DNA of 64,000 nucleotides. Origin: Limisphaerales bacterium (GTDB lineage Bacteria; Verrucomicrobiota; Verrucomicrobiia; Limisphaerales; UBA1100). Shown here piece by piece: positions 18,260 to 23,643 of this stretch; the stretch's first letter is position 1, and every line of letters begins with the position of its first letter. A program made the position numbers and the translations under genes. The stretch covers positions 1 through 64,000 of the forward strand of contig JACNJL010000064.1 of the NCBI GenBank assembly GCA_014382585.1, given 5' to 3'. Under the pieces are notes generated by a model. It searched no databases, was not told the DNA's origin, and worked only from the letters and a program-made list of their open reading frames with translations.

Positions 18260-18463
18260 ATGACGCCCCCGGATAACGCGCCTGAATCACTACCCACGTA
18301 TCGTTGGCCGTATTTTTTGGGGGCCTTGGTGCTACTGGGCATTGTGATTGGGATTATGTGGACGCTTTGGAGTATCCGAATGACTACTGATCAACGGAAA
18401 GAACGGGAAGGGTTGGATGACTTCGGCCATCCTAAAGTACAAACCAATAAAGTGGCGCAGTAA
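18260..18463 (+). CDS. Small single-pass membrane protein
   Basis: A 67-residue ORF starting at ATG 18260 (MTPPDNAPESLPTYRWPYF). It has one hydrophobic segment (about 19-40, FLGALVLLGIVIGIMWTLWSI) and a charged C-terminal tail (TTDQRKEREGLDDFGHPK). The first 15 residues are proline-rich. I do not recognise a family. It resembles short proteins of respiratory or envelope complexes only in layout. It is immediately upstream of, and 16 bp from, the FGE-like lipoprotein gene on the same strand, so the two may be co-transcribed. The open frame runs further upstream, but that part is antisense to rsmI. Confidence 0.6.
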   Translation: MTPPDNAPESLPTYRWPYFLGALVLLGIVIGIMWTLWSIRMTTDQRKEREGLDDFGHPKVQTNKVAQ

Positions 18464-18479
18464 ATGGTGCCGTAGAGCA

Positions 18480-19571
18480 ATGAAACTGATTTTATTTATT
18501 TCGCTGGCAATATCGATTGTCGGTTGCAAACCGGGCGAAGAGAGCGGCGGATCGGCTGCACCTGAAAATTCTTCCGGTAAGAAAAATTTTTCTACCACCG
18601 GCATGGTATGGATTCCATCGGGCACATTCAAAATGGGCTGGGCGGATGGGCCCACCGATGAGGCTCCGGTGCACCGGGTAAAACTCGATGGGTTTTGGAT
18701 GGGTGTGCATGAGGTGACTAATGATGAGTTTGCTAAATTTGTCGCTGCCACAAAATATGTGACCCTCGCCGAGGAAGAGCCCACGGCGGAGAATCTTGGC
18801 ATTACGCCGGAAGAATTTGCCAATATTCCCAAGGATAAAATTGTGGCTGGATCAATAGTGTTCACGCCGCCGGCGCAAGAAATTCCAGTAAATATGCTCA
18901 AACAGCACAACATGTGGAGCGTGTGGTGGCGTCATGTGGGAGGCACAAATTGGCGGCATCCCGAGGGGCCGGATTCTGATATTTCCGGGCGCGGCAATCA
19001 TCCGGTCGTGCATGTCAGTTGGGATGATGCCCACGCTTATTGTGCGTGGCTTACCGATGCCAGCGGCGTGAAACATCGGCTGCCCTCTGAAGCGGAATGG
19101 GAATACGCTGCGCGCGGTGGGCTTGAGGGTAAAGAATATGTGTGGGGTGATGAACAGCAGCCCGACGGCAATCCTCACGCCAATATTTGGCAAGGCCGTT
19201 TTCCACGGGAAAACACAAAAGTGGATGGGTTTTATGGCACAGCCCCGGTGGGCACGTTTCCCGCTAATGGCTATGGCCTGCATGATGTGGCTGGGAATGT
19301 TTGGGAGTGGTGCGCGGATTGGTACGCGCCAACATATTACAGCCAGAGTCCGGTGAAAAATCCTGGCGGCCCGTTGCAGCAGGATAGTTTTGATCCTAAT
19401 GACGGGCGTAATCGGATTCCGAAACGTATTCAGCGGGGTGGTTCGTTTTTGTGCACGGATCTTTATTGTGGCGCATTCCGTCCTTCACGGCGGATGAAAA
19501 ACACGCCGGATTCCGGTTCTCAACATTCGGGGTTTCGCGTGGTGGCCGATGGGCCTGCGCCGACCCAATAA
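18480..19571 (+). CDS. Exported formylglycine-generating enzyme (FGE) lipoprotein
   Basis: SUMF1/FGE family enzyme, predicted to oxidise the CxPSR cysteine of sulfatases to formylglycine. The 363-residue product starts with a lipoprotein signal (MKLILFISLAISIVGC, Cys16 lipidated) and a short Ser/Gly linker. The FGE domain spans about 40-360: MVWIPSGTFKMG, HPVVHVSWDDAHAYCAW, LPSEAEWEYAARGG, GLHDVAGNVWEWCADWY. The two copper-binding cysteines of true FGEs are conserved in the SFLCTDLYC segment (C325, C330), followed by NTPDS and GFRV. Many FGE-like paralogs lack this pair, so catalysis is plausible. It is convergent with the sulfatase at 19626-21158, with 54 bp between stops. ATG 18480 is chosen because the signal peptide begins there. 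Confidence 0.9.
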   Translation: MKLILFISLAISIVGCKPGEESGGSAAPENSSGKKNFSTTGMVWIPSGTFKMGWADGPTDEAPVHRVKLDGFWMGVHEVTNDEFAKFVAATKYVTLAEEEPTAENLGITPEEFANIPKDKIVAGSIVFTPPAQEIPVNMLKQHNMWSVWWRHVGGTNWRHPEGPDSDISGRGNHPVVHVSWDDAHAYCAWLTDASGVKHRLPSEAEWEYAARGGLEGKEYVWGDEQQPDGNPHANIWQGRFPRENTKVDGFYGTAPVGTFPANGYGLHDVAGNVWEWCADWYAPTYYSQSPVKNPGGPLQQDSFDPNDGRNRIPKRIQRGGSFLCTDLYCGAFRPSRRMKNTPDSGSQHSGFRVVADGPAPTQ

Positions 19572-19625
19572 AAAACCGCCCGGCCTTTCAGCCAAACGGT
19601 GTGTGATATCGATCTTGCCAAGCAG

Positions 19626-21158
19626 CTAACGCTGGGCAGATTTTTCGGGTGCCGCACGGAGCGGCCAATAGGTTGATTTCACCCGGGCGACGGCCAAATG
19701 AGCTTCAATTTGTTTGATCACATCGGGGTGCTGCGCGGCTACGTTGCGCGTTTCACCTTTGTCGGTTTTTAGGTTGTACAGTTCCAGCGGTTTGCCTGGC
19801 GTAGTGCGCACGGCTTTCCAGTCGCCTTGACGGACGGCCTGTTGGGAGCCGGTTTCGTGAACTTCCCAGTATAGAAATTCGTGTTGTTGTTTTTGCGGCA
19901 ACCCGATGAGCGTGGGCATCAGTGAAATGCCGTCGGTTTCGCGTGGTGCGGGCAGTTTGGCTACCTGGAGCAGGGTGGGGAGCATATCCCAAAAGGCAAA
20001 GGGCTGGTCGGTTACGGTGCCGGCTTTTACTTTGCCTTTCCATTTTACAATCATCGGGACGCGGATGCCGCCTTCGTAAAGGCTGCGCTTGATGCCTCGG
20101 AAGGGGCCGGCGCCGCGGAAGAATTTCGGGTCGTTTCCGCCTTCCATGTGCGGGCCGTTGTCGCTGGTGAACAGGACGAGGGTATCTTCTTCGATATCAT
20201 ATTCGCGCAGCTTGGCGAGGATTTGACCGATCGCCTGGTCCATTCGGGTGATCATCGCGGCTTTGTTGCGTTCCGGCCGTGGCCAGCGTTCGCCGGCGTA
20301 GGGGAACGCATTGTTGGGCACTTCCATTCCGTTCCGGGTTTTTTGCGCGAGCGCATTATTCGCGTGTGGCGCGGTGTAAGAAACGTACATGAAAAAGGGT
20401 TTGTATTTGCTTTCCGGAGCGGGCTTGTAAATGCGGATGGCGTTCAATGCCATTTTGGTGATGATGTCGGTGCTGTATTTAATGCGGCGCCCGCCCGCGT
20501 TTGCGTGGATGGGGACATCGCCGTTGAATTGGTTGATGCCGCCGATACCCGGTGCGTATCGCCAGAGGAAGGTTGGGTAATAATTGTTGGCGTGTAGTTG
20601 GTCGGAGAAGCCCGCCCAGTGGCGGAAGCCTTTGCGGAAAGGTTCGCCGGTGGTGCCTTTTTCGCCGAGGTTCCATTTGCCGAGCGCGATAGTCTCGTAG
20701 TTGGCGGCCATCAGGATTTGCGGGATGGTGATGTCGATGGCGCGCAGGGGGACGCGGCGATTGCCCCGGATGTATGCGTGGCCGGTGTGTTTGCCGGTGA
20801 AGAGCGAGCCGCGCGAGGCGTCGCCAATGGAGCTGCCGGCGTAGGCTTGGGTGAAGCGCATGCCCTCTGCCGCCATCCGGTCGAGGTAAGGCGTTTTGAT
20901 CACCGGTTGGCCGTAGCTGCCGAGTTCACCCCAGCCGAGGTCATCGGCCATGATCAAAATAATATTGGGCGAGCTGGGCCCTTTGCGTTTTTGCGACTGC
21001 ACGCCGAGGGGTATTTTGGGTGCGTTGGGTTTGGGCGTGCCCAGTGTGGGGCGTGGCACAGGAATGCGCACGGGCTGCGGTGTGGGTTGAGCCCAAACGG
21101 GCGCAGTTACGGCAAACAAGCAAGCAAACGCAATGCTGTTGCGAATCAATTTCTCCAT
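19626..21158 (-). CDS. Secreted sulfatase-family protein lacking the formylglycine cysteine
   Basis: Type I sulfatase fold, 510 residues, with signal peptide MEKLIRNSIAFACLFAVTAPVWA and a proline-rich linker. Present are the metal-site DD in IMADDLGWG, GxR-type basic residues, FFMYVSYTAPH, FTSDNGPH, and the lysine segment GIKRSLYEGGIRVP. The nucleophile motif, usually C/S-x-P-S-R after AYAGSxx, reads SSIGDASR. Gly112 (codon 20825-20823) stands where the cysteine should be. The GKWHLG histidine is also changed (GKWNLG, Asn163). It may be a non-catalytic binder or use a different chemistry. ATG 21158 is clear from the signal peptide and a strong Shine-Dalgarno sequence (GAGGAGGG) upstream. That site sets it apart from most genes here. 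Confidence 0.93.
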   Translation of the reverse strand: MEKLIRNSIAFACLFAVTAPVWAQPTPQPVRIPVPRPTLGTPKPNAPKIPLGVQSQKRKGPSSPNIILIMADDLGWGELGSYGQPVIKTPYLDRMAAEGMRFTQAYAGSSIGDASRGSLFTGKHTGHAYIRGNRRVPLRAIDITIPQILMAANYETIALGKWNLGEKGTTGEPFRKGFRHWAGFSDQLHANNYYPTFLWRYAPGIGGINQFNGDVPIHANAGGRRIKYSTDIITKMALNAIRIYKPAPESKYKPFFMYVSYTAPHANNALAQKTRNGMEVPNNAFPYAGERWPRPERNKAAMITRMDQAIGQILAKLREYDIEEDTLVLFTSDNGPHMEGGNDPKFFRGAGPFRGIKRSLYEGGIRVPMIVKWKGKVKAGTVTDQPFAFWDMLPTLLQVAKLPAPRETDGISLMPTLIGLPQKQQHEFLYWEVHETGSQQAVRQGDWKAVRTTPGKPLELYNLKTDKGETRNVAAQHPDVIKQIEAHLAVARVKSTYWPLRAAPEKSAQR

Positions 21159-21257: not shown

Positions 21258-22523
21258 TCATTCCGCCAAATATGGAATTGTCAACGGCCCTTGTGGCAGC
21301 ACGGCCACGCGGGCTTCGGGCCCGTGGCGTTCGAGTTCTGAAGCGACCATTGCGCTGATGTCTTCGCAGGGTGTGAGGTGAGCGGCGCGCAGCGTTTCGG
21401 CGGAGAGCGAACTATGCACGCGCACATCGGCGTTGCGCTGGATAAGCGCTTGAATTTGCGCCTGCCATTGTTCGGGTTTTGTAAAACCCGGCGTGGCTAA
21501 CAAGCTCAACACTTCTTCGGGACTGCGCGCGGTGCGCAGGAGTTGATCCATTGGGCTGTGCTCGGGCACGCCTTCTCGGCATTCGCAGGTGAGAATGAGC
21601 GTGCCGCCGTCTTTCAAAATGCGCGCTCCGGCACTCATGCCTTTCACGCCCTGATACAAATTCAGATCCAACGGATAACCGCTGTTGGTGGTCACCACCA
21701 CGTCGAAAGGTTTTTCCACCGGTTGCATCGCGGTGCGCCCCACAAATTCGCAGCCTCTTTTGTGCGCCTCGATGAGGTTGCCGGCAAAGATGTTAGTGAT
21801 TTGGCGCTGCTCGTTGAGCGTGACGTTTAGTAAAAAATTCGGGCCGGTGCGTTGGGCGATGGCGAGCATTTCTTCCCAAATCGGGTTGCCATACGTGACG
21901 CCAAACGTGCTTTTAGGATTGCTGATGTGGCTTGCGCCGTGATTGCTCATCACCGTTTCCAATGCCGCCACGCCGGGCATGATGCCCTTGGGGCCGCCGC
22001 TGTAGCCGGCGAAAAAGTGTGGTTCAATGAAGCCCGTGACGATGCGCAGATCCGCCTCCACCGCGTGCCGATGGATGAGCGCGGGCGTGCCATCGTGGGT
22101 GGTGCCCAGCGCGATGTGGGCATCGGGGTTGTTCGGCTCGGCGTTGACCACGCGGTAATGATTGACCACTTCGCGCGTAAGCATTTGCTCCATCTCCGCA
22201 CGCGAATTGGGTCGGTGCGTGCCCAGTTGATTGAGTAACAAAATGTTTTCGCGCGGCACGTGGGCCAAGTGTTCCAGCAACCACGGGATGATGCGTTCGT
22301 TGGGCGTGGCGCGGGTGAGGTCGGTGAAGAGAATACAGATTTTGGTGTCGGCTTTGATTAACTGCTTGAGCGGGCGCTCGCCGATGGGGTTTTCCAGCGC
22401 GGCCAACAGCGAGGCGCGTTCATCAGGCAACCCTTCGCGCGGGGTGGGGGCGATGACCGTCGTGCGGTCGTCCGGGCATTCAATGGGCAATTGCCCTTCG
22501 CCGTATGCGAGTTGGATTTCCAT
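21258..22523 (-). CDS. LarA-like nickel-pincer racemase (DUF2088)
   Basis: Lactate racemase homologue: enzymes of this family racemise or epimerise 2-hydroxy acids using a nickel-pincer nucleotide. The 421-residue length is typical. Visible family features are FTDLTRATP, LGTHRPN (histidine near the active site), HFFAGYSGGPKGIMPG (lysine that binds the cofactor), SNHGASH, GNPIWEEM, and the Tyr-Gln-x-x-Lys of NLYQGVKGM. ATG 22523 (MEIQLAYG) is chosen by length and by a TTGGCC-17-CATACT pair eight bases upstream; the frame is open beyond it. No larB, larC or larE is near, so the cofactor genes must lie elsewhere. The true substrate is unknown; other 2-hydroxy acids are possible. Confidence 0.88.
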   Translation of the reverse strand: MEIQLAYGEGQLPIECPDDRTTVIAPTPREGLPDERASLLAALENPIGERPLKQLIKADTKICILFTDLTRATPNERIIPWLLEHLAHVPRENILLLNQLGTHRPNSRAEMEQMLTREVVNHYRVVNAEPNNPDAHIALGTTHDGTPALIHRHAVEADLRIVTGFIEPHFFAGYSGGPKGIMPGVAALETVMSNHGASHISNPKSTFGVTYGNPIWEEMLAIAQRTGPNFLLNVTLNEQRQITNIFAGNLIEAHKRGCEFVGRTAMQPVEKPFDVVVTTNSGYPLDLNLYQGVKGMSAGARILKDGGTLILTCECREGVPEHSPMDQLLRTARSPEEVLSLLATPGFTKPEQWQAQIQALIQRNADVRVHSSLSAETLRAAHLTPCEDISAMVASELERHGPEARVAVLPQGPLTIPYLAE

Positions 22524-22531
22524 CCGCACGC

Positions 22532-22560
22532 AGTATGCCGTCGGCGCCGCACGGGGCCAA
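22532..22560 (-). promoter_or_regulatory. Candidate promoter of the larA-like gene
   Basis: Minus strand: TTGGCC, 17 nt, CATACT, eight bases, ATG 22523. Confidence 0.4.
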
Positions 22561-22574
22561 GGCAAATGCGGTGC

Positions 22575-22602
22575 TTGAACAATTCGATATTTTTCGTATG
22601 CT
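22575..22602 (+). promoter_or_regulatory. Candidate promoter of the M48 peptidase gene (leaderless)
   Basis: TTGAAC (22575-22580), 16 nt, TATGCT (22597-22602), six bases, ATG 22609. It shares the 85-bp divergent gap with the larA-like promoter. Confidence 0.5.
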
Positions 22603-22608
22603 CCGGCA

Positions 22609-23643
22609 ATGAGGTTGTGGAAACACATAAAGCGTTTGAGCTTGGCCGTGTTGATGGCGGGGTTGACTGCTTGCACGACAGTTCCGGAGACCGGCCGTTC
22701 ACAGCTCAATCTGATTTCCCCCTCGATGGAACGCGGGATGGGGCGTGATGCGTTTAACAATTTGAAAGGAAGCACGCCGCTGAGCAGCGATCAAAACGCC
22801 ACTGCGATATTGCAGCGCGTGGGCAATCGCATTGCCGCCGTGGCGAATTTGCCCAAGGCGCAGTGGGAGTTTGTGCTTTTCGAAAACAGCCAGGCAAACG
22901 CCTTTTGTTTGCCCGGTGGCAAGGTGGGCGTGTACTCGGGGATGTTGCAAATCACGCAAACCGAGGCCGGACTCGCCACGGTGCTCGCGCACGAGGTGGC
23001 ACACGCGGTGGCGCATCACGGGGCCGAACGCATCAGCCGTGTGCTTGTGGTGCAGGGGGTGGGGATGGCGTTGATTTCACAATTTACCAAAATGAATGCC
23101 GCCGGTAAAAATGCGTTGATGATTGCCTACGGTCTCGGCACCACGCTCGGCACCGAGCTGCCGCACAGTCGGCTGCAGGAAAGCGAGGCCGACCGTATCG
23201 GGCTGATTTATATGGCCCGGGCGGGATATGATCCGGCGGAGGCGGTTAAATTCTGGGAACGTTTCGCCGAATACAATCGCGCCCAAGGTGGCAGCCGCAT
23301 GCCGTGGTTTCTGCGCACCCATCCGCTGGATGAACAACGCATCGAAGATCTTAAACGCCTCCTGCCCGAAGCCCAACTCGAATACCGTCCGCGGGGAAAA
23401 GAAGATTCGCCCACCCCGACGCCAACTTTGCCAAAAGAAATTTCCAAAACCATCACTCTCATCCATCCCAAAACCGGTGAGCGAAAAATCATTCCGTGGA
23501 AATCCGGGATGACCATTTACACCGCCCGCCGCAAAGCCGGCATTCGCCCCACCGGACTGCCTCAACTCACCCGCGCCGGAAAACTACGCCCCGCCAACCC
23601 CGCCACCGCTCTTCAGCCGGGGGATGTGATCCGCTGGAAATAG
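22609..23643 (+). CDS. M48 family metalloprotease lipoprotein
   Basis: Zinc peptidase related to BepA/LoiP, expected to act in the periplasm on outer-membrane proteins. The 344-residue product has a lipoprotein signal (LMAGLTAC, Cys22), then the M48 domain with HEVAH (128-132) and the third ligand glutamate in the ESEAD motif (near 192). The C-terminal stretch of about 85 residues after a Pro/Thr linker (SPTPTPTLPKE) looks like a small beta-grasp or SLBB-type domain (TIYTARRKAGI...LQPGDVIRWK). That is unusual, since BepA carries TPR repeats instead. The linked domain may bind a glycan or partner, which is inference. It is divergent from the larA-like gene. Confidence 0.9.
   Translation: MRLWKHIKRLSLAVLMAGLTACTTVPETGRSQLNLISPSMERGMGRDAFNNLKGSTPLSSDQNATAILQRVGNRIAAVANLPKAQWEFVLFENSQANAFCLPGGKVGVYSGMLQITQTEAGLATVLAHEVAHAVAHHGAERISRVLVVQGVGMALISQFTKMNAAGKNALMIAYGLGTTLGTELPHSRLQESEADRIGLIYMARAGYDPAEAVKFWERFAEYNRAQGGSRMPWFLRTHPLDEQRIEDLKRLLPEAQLEYRPRGKEDSPTPTPTLPKEISKTITLIHPKTGERKIIPWKSGMTIYTARRKAGIRPTGLPQLTRAGKLRPANPATALQPGDVIRWK

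Follow-up and report, generated by a model that had tools for sequence, protein, structure and literature searches.

S1_20 sulfatases and the formylglycine nucleophile

The closest solved relatives of the protein described here are BT1622 (7an1, 7oqd) and BT1636 (7ana, 7anb), two 3-O-sulfo-Gal/GalNAc sulfatases of the S1_20 subfamily from Bacteroides thetaiotaomicron. We take 7an1 to be BT1622, and 7ana and 7anb to be BT1636. The structure 7oqd is that of BT1622, and both proteins are active S1_20 sulfatases (PMC13383068). Sugar recognition in S1_20 involves a His that reads the axial O4 of galactose (PMC10154612).

Formylglycine can only be made where a Cys or Ser occupies the nucleophile position (PMC10154612, PMC5066984). 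Of the 4,058 S1 sequences in SulfAtlas, 78.9% have Cys here and 21.1% have Ser. The same resource notes nine putatively inactive S1 sequences from Lentisphaerae and Planctomycetes, in which the charged residue of the motif is lost. In choline sulfatase, replacing the Cys with Ala lowers kcat/KM from 4.8e3 to the order of 2e-3, a drop of some six orders of magnitude (PMC5870055). The nucleophile of alkaline phosphatase destabilises the ground state, so that anions bind orders of magnitude more tightly once Ser102 is replaced with Gly (PMC3699461).

A sulfatase homologue without the nucleophile

The window, a stretch of 64,000 nucleotides from a Limisphaerales bacterium (contig JACNJL010000064.1, positions 1 to 64,000), encodes a sulfatase homologue in which Gly occupies the formylglycine position (Table 1). 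The reading frame, start, signal-like N-terminus, stop, Gly112 codon and Asn163 are all as the sequence-only reading had described them. Translation starts at the ATG at 21158, with a good ribosome-binding site, GAGGAGGG, directly upstream. Residues 64-400 match PF00884 (E 2.4e-52; 178.6 bits against a cut-off of 25), and the C-terminal domain matches SGSH_C (E 4e-16).

BT1622 and BT1636 are the best solved matches by sequence (E 8e-100 and 2e-86, the next being 2e-54) and by fold (Z 50.6 and 49.4). The predicted structure has a pLDDT of 87, with 402 residues at 90 or above and low values for residues 1-60, and its closest solved fold is 7an1 (2.0 Å over 423 residues). By prediction, the fold is thus intact. 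Closeness to characterised S1_20 enzymes would place the protein in this subfamily.

Table 1. Features of the sulfatase homologue and its surroundings (positions in the window).
Feature	Position	Strand	Basis or remark
CDS, 510 aa, putatively secreted S1_20-like sulfatase homologue without the formylglycine Cys	19626..21158	-	PF00884, SGSH_C, modelled fold
Signal-peptide-like N-terminus (MEKLIRNSIAFACLFAVTAPVWAQ), Sec-like, without lipobox	21087..21158	-	sequence reading
D72-D73, calcium ligands, kept	20940..20945	-	invariant in 79 aligned orthologues
G112 (GGC) at the formylglycine Cys position	20823..20825	-	motif G-D-A-S-R
D113-A114, where CxPSR has x-Pro	20817..20822	-	clade/orthologue alignment
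S115-R116, kept	20811..20816	-	alignment
K161 (Lys of GKW), kept	20676..20678	-	invariant, aligned orthologues
N163 in GKWNLG; His in most S1 sulfatases, Gly/Ala/Ser in own subgroup	20670..20672	-	
N191, column of the His in BT1636, BT1622 and 60 of 61 Cys-bearing orthologues	20586..20588	-	alignment
H265 (general-acid His), kept	20364..20366	-	clade alignment
D333-N334, calcium ligands, kept	20157..20162	-	invariant, aligned orthologues
K357 (general-acid Lys), kept	20088..20090	-	invariant, aligned orthologues
Terminator-like hairpin and T tract 3' of the sulfatase gene	19575..19600	-	such sites no commoner in the region than in shuffles
Formylglycine-generating enzyme (FGE), catalytic C346 and C351, convergent to the sulfatase gene	18417..19571	+	PF03781, E 9.7e-80
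larA-type racemase	21258..22775	-	member of conserved order
M48 metalloprotease	22609..23643	+	member of conserved order

The genome (3.7 Mb) holds 117 PF00884 matches, corresponding to about 110 sulfatases. In a census based on fetched stretches of the genome, 120 aligned open reading frames carried the Cys, some of them counted twice where loci overlap, and one did not, making this gene the only exception among sulfatases with the motif covered. Many of the 117 matches cluster on a few contigs (C30, C36, C48 and C50 of this genome, G000), which suggests large sulfated-polysaccharide loci.

Extent and origin of the Cys loss

Searches with the protein covered close relatives of the genome, the family and order, a sample of the phylum and 84,980 species genomes. 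The sequence-only reading had proposed looking for a clade with a common motif, and such a clade exists: 20 sequences without the Cys, from 18 of the 20 genomes of the window's family (all 10 of those of good quality) and from a second family, form a group with a support of 100/99 in the maximum-likelihood tree. On this tree, the distribution of the Cys-less state requires three changes, compared with 21 in shuffles. The motif is GDASR throughout the genus (seven genomes), GNASR, GCASR or DSASR elsewhere in the family, and DSASR in the second family. Gly or Asp occupies the nucleophile position in every member, so that none fits the S1 motif C/S-x-P/A-x-R, while 61 orthologues keep CxPSR.

When the tree was rooted with 63 further homologues, the clade nested within Cys-bearing enzymes. 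Two long-branch Cys-less sequences, L196 (STPSR) and L188 (GVPSR), group with the clade at 0.944 to give a Cys-less group of 22 members. A copy with 94% identity lies on JAPKDK010000148.1 (Verrucomicrobiota bacterium ANT-88), and no close orthologue of the clade was found elsewhere in the phylum in a non-exhaustive sample of 388 genomes. A class-wide search with a degenerate DNA pattern for the Cys-less motifs gave similar forward and backward (control) counts, the pattern being far too loose.

Several sequences show other states of this site. L188 (4899-6191) and L196 (4837-6123; also with Gln for H265) may mark intermediate stages. L178 (3071-4402; GAPSR), from another family of the order, represents a separate change of Cys to Gly, and since it retains both the Pro and His191, this loss is apparently recent. 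The GCASR motif of L043 (codons GGC TGC GCC TCA AGG) has a Cys one position past the nucleophile site, where its spacing to the Arg is wrong for formylglycine formation.

The gene has also stayed at its locus. Clade members retain the order FGE(+)-sulfatase(-)-larA(-)-M48(+), except that larA was not found at this position in some genomes of one genus. It recurs around the Cys-bearing orthologues L168 and L195 of another family, and in part around L164, L170 and L172. This common order indicates that no recent duplicate is involved and, as read from the alignments and gene order, the gene is the orthologue by vertical descent, its Cys having been lost in situ. A recent paralogue under relaxed constraint was considered and ruled out by the same synteny.

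The neighbouring FGE has human FGE as its best solved match (E 4.7e-74), with the Cys pair aligned, and both catalytic Cys are retained in every neighbour copy in the clade. Of the genome's five PF03781 proteins, it alone has the catalytic pair. It presumably serves the other ~110 sulfatases. Its translation probably starts at 18480 (MKLILFISLAISIVGC), which would give a lipoprotein signal and place maturation at the envelope. On the other side, the listed larA frame runs into the divergent M48 gene. Its family matches do not begin before residue 86, which probably puts the real start some 80 codons into the frame.

Selection on the Cys-less lineage

Loss of a catalytic residue can be the first step of decay, and a distant homologue (L075, FTRSL) does look degenerate. 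However, decay or an assembly or sequencing error is an extremely improbable account of the gene in the window and is refuted by the conservation data: 20 sequences from two families have full-length frames, and dN/dS within the genus is 0.084, compared with 0.150 for the FGE gene and 0.126 for larA alongside. Error in particular was rejected, as the seven genus genomes all read GDASR with silent variants in their codons (GGC/GGA for Gly112, GAC/GAT for the Asp). The impression that the gene is not decayed is thus borne out, both by this dN/dS and by its presence in nearly all genomes of the family.

The clade keeps 70 of the 92 positions that are at least 97% conserved in Cys-bearing orthologues. 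Those lost together include C112 (16 Gly, 4 Asp), P114 (Ala in all 20 members, Pro in 61/61 Cys-bearing orthologues), V111, T110 and H191 (16 Asn, 4 Asp). At column 191, His is present in 60 of the 61 Cys-bearing orthologues and in none of the 22-member Cys-less group, which has Asn, Asp, Glu or Gln. Residue-level mapping of the pocket, from the alignment and a review (PMC10154612), suggests that this column holds the His that reads the axial O4 of galactose in S1_20, a hallmark of the subfamily that the clade would then lack.

The ligands of the metal and of the sulfate group show the opposite pattern. The calcium ligands of S1 sulfatases (Asp, Asp, Asp, Asn) are present as D72, D73, D333 and N334, and the Arg, Lys, His and Lys of the sulfate site as R116, K161, H265 and K357. 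As first noted for the metal pairs and other active-site residues, these are kept, and the clade shows no change at any of the eight in a tree of 3.3 substitutions per site with 36% of sites unchanged. The chance of this at the average rate is about 3e-4, a figure that is only illustrative because pocket residues are slow sites already.

Asn163 is a different case. Its description as an Asn in place of an active-site His holds for the S1 family overall but not for the protein's own subgroup, where the His is never present: column 163 is Gly in 53, Ala in 5 and Ser in 3 of the 61 Cys-bearing orthologues, and BT1622 and BT1636 read GKWA and GKWG. A second lost catalytic residue at this position is thereby ruled out. 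As GKWG and GKWA are usual in active S1_20 relatives, GKWN is no anomaly, and only the Cys loss is unusual.

What might the pocket do?

The need for Cys or Ser in formylglycine formation excludes the canonical mechanism for the Gly112 protein. It had been suggested that another nucleophile, such as the nearby serines, might take over. S115 is indeed invariant in the clade, but it is equally conserved in Cys-bearing orthologues, and the model starts a helix at residue 112, which would put S115 about one turn in. Positions 109 and 110, just before the site, vary within the clade (Ser, Ala, Pro, Thr), and 113 is Asp, Asn, Ser or Cys. With no conserved Ser specific to the clade, a relocated protein nucleophile, whether S115 or a serine before residue 112, is very unlikely, and this part of the earlier suggestion did not hold.

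Instead, we favour, with a little more than even confidence, a pseudosulfatase: a vertical descendant of an ordinary S1_20-like formylglycine sulfatase that lost its nucleophile and kept the fold, the calcium site and a sulfate-ester pocket, without turnover. An essential catalytic residue has gone while the predicted fold and selection remain, as expected of a pseudoenzyme. A carbohydrate-sulfate binder, one of the functions first proposed, fits best because the eight calcium and sulfate ligands are unchanged across the clade. The protein would be exported and use the former S subsite to bind Ca2+ and a sulfate ester. Its sugar subsite would be remodelled, and the sugar is probably other than the galacto-configured ligand of S1_20. 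Useful turnover would be absent, as formylglycine cannot form, and the pocket may hold its anion more tightly than before, as in alkaline phosphatase S102G. The protein may serve to capture, present or sense sulfated glycans, with the ~110 other sulfatases doing the cutting.

Pocket conservation would also be expected if the pocket were used for a new chemistry, and a pure binder has no obvious need for H265 and K357, which are thought to protonate the leaving group. One alternative is that the protein still hydrolyses a sulfate or phosphate ester, but with no nucleophile of its own. Here, a Ca2+-bound water or hydroxide would fill the space of formylglycine. Residue 112 or 113 (Asp, Asn, Ser or Cys) and D333 would orient it, and the leaving group would be protonated by H265 and K357. 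The remaining catalytic residues are all unchanged, this acid pair among them, and in every case residues 112-113 supply one or more polar side chains (D113, N113, D112-S113 or C113). However, with residue 112 alternating between Gly and Asp and four different residues occurring at 113, the clade conserves no defined catalytic group; column 191 was remodelled along with the Cys; and a related sulfatase loses nearly all activity when its nucleophile is mutated (PMC5870055). Residual hydrolysis of this kind is therefore unlikely. More doubtful still is a natural S1 lineage in which metal-bound water does the work of formylglycine and maturation by FGE is not needed. To our knowledge, no described S1 sulfatase works in this way.

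The conserved pocket also bears on a protein-protein role, in which the protein would pair with, inhibit or scaffold an active sulfatase or envelope protein and keep its pocket for the fold only. Some S1 enzymes are oligomeric, such as choline sulfatase (PMC5870055), the genome offers about 110 possible partners, and the calcium ligands could serve stability. Under such a role, R116, K161, H265 and K357 should drift more freely, yet they show no change in 20 sequences. No partner is indicated either, as FGE, larA and M48 are equally placed beside Cys-bearing orthologues. We regard this as an improbable alternative to the binder.

Relation to known systems

The clade is best classed as a pseudoenzyme of a known family rather than a new kind of protein. 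In the open literature (subscription papers and preprints being outside the scope), no described natural pseudosulfatase or Cys-less S1 clade was found. This matters in practice, since counts of sulfatase genes are used to estimate sulfated-glycan degradation, with PF00884 matches taken as enzymes. Here, in the sulfatase-rich phylum Verrucomicrobiota, a conserved vertical lineage cannot make formylglycine and yet is strongly selected. One orthologous locus also provides a natural before-and-after series, from Cys, to Ser or Gly, to Gly or Asp, which allows one to ask what a sulfatase pocket does without its nucleophile.

Where the protein has Gly112 and Asn191, BT1622 and BT1636 have Ser (with assays made on the S75C and S77C variants; PMC13383068) and His, respectively. 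Within the same order, orthologues that carry the Cys (e.g. L051, L053, L168 and L195) are 50-57% identical and share its calcium and sulfate residues and, in several cases, its locus order. These read CAPSR, GKWG and His191, whereas the protein has GDASR, GKWN and Asn191. PF00884 proteins with Thr or TxNxE, which their authors reject as sulfatases, likewise lack Cys or Ser at the nucleophile position (PMC5066984); these belong to other branches, while the Gly/Asp change described here lies inside a sulfatase subfamily. The protein also resembles alkaline phosphatase S102G, where the nucleophile of an enzyme from the same superfamily was changed to Gly, the rest of the site was kept and the anion was bound far more tightly (PMC3699461). 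That protein is a laboratory mutant with two Zn ions and phosphate, whereas this is a natural lineage, presumably with one Ca2+ and a sulfate ester. The clade offers a natural test of what was found in the laboratory, where an enzyme of this superfamily became a tight anion binder once its nucleophile was removed.
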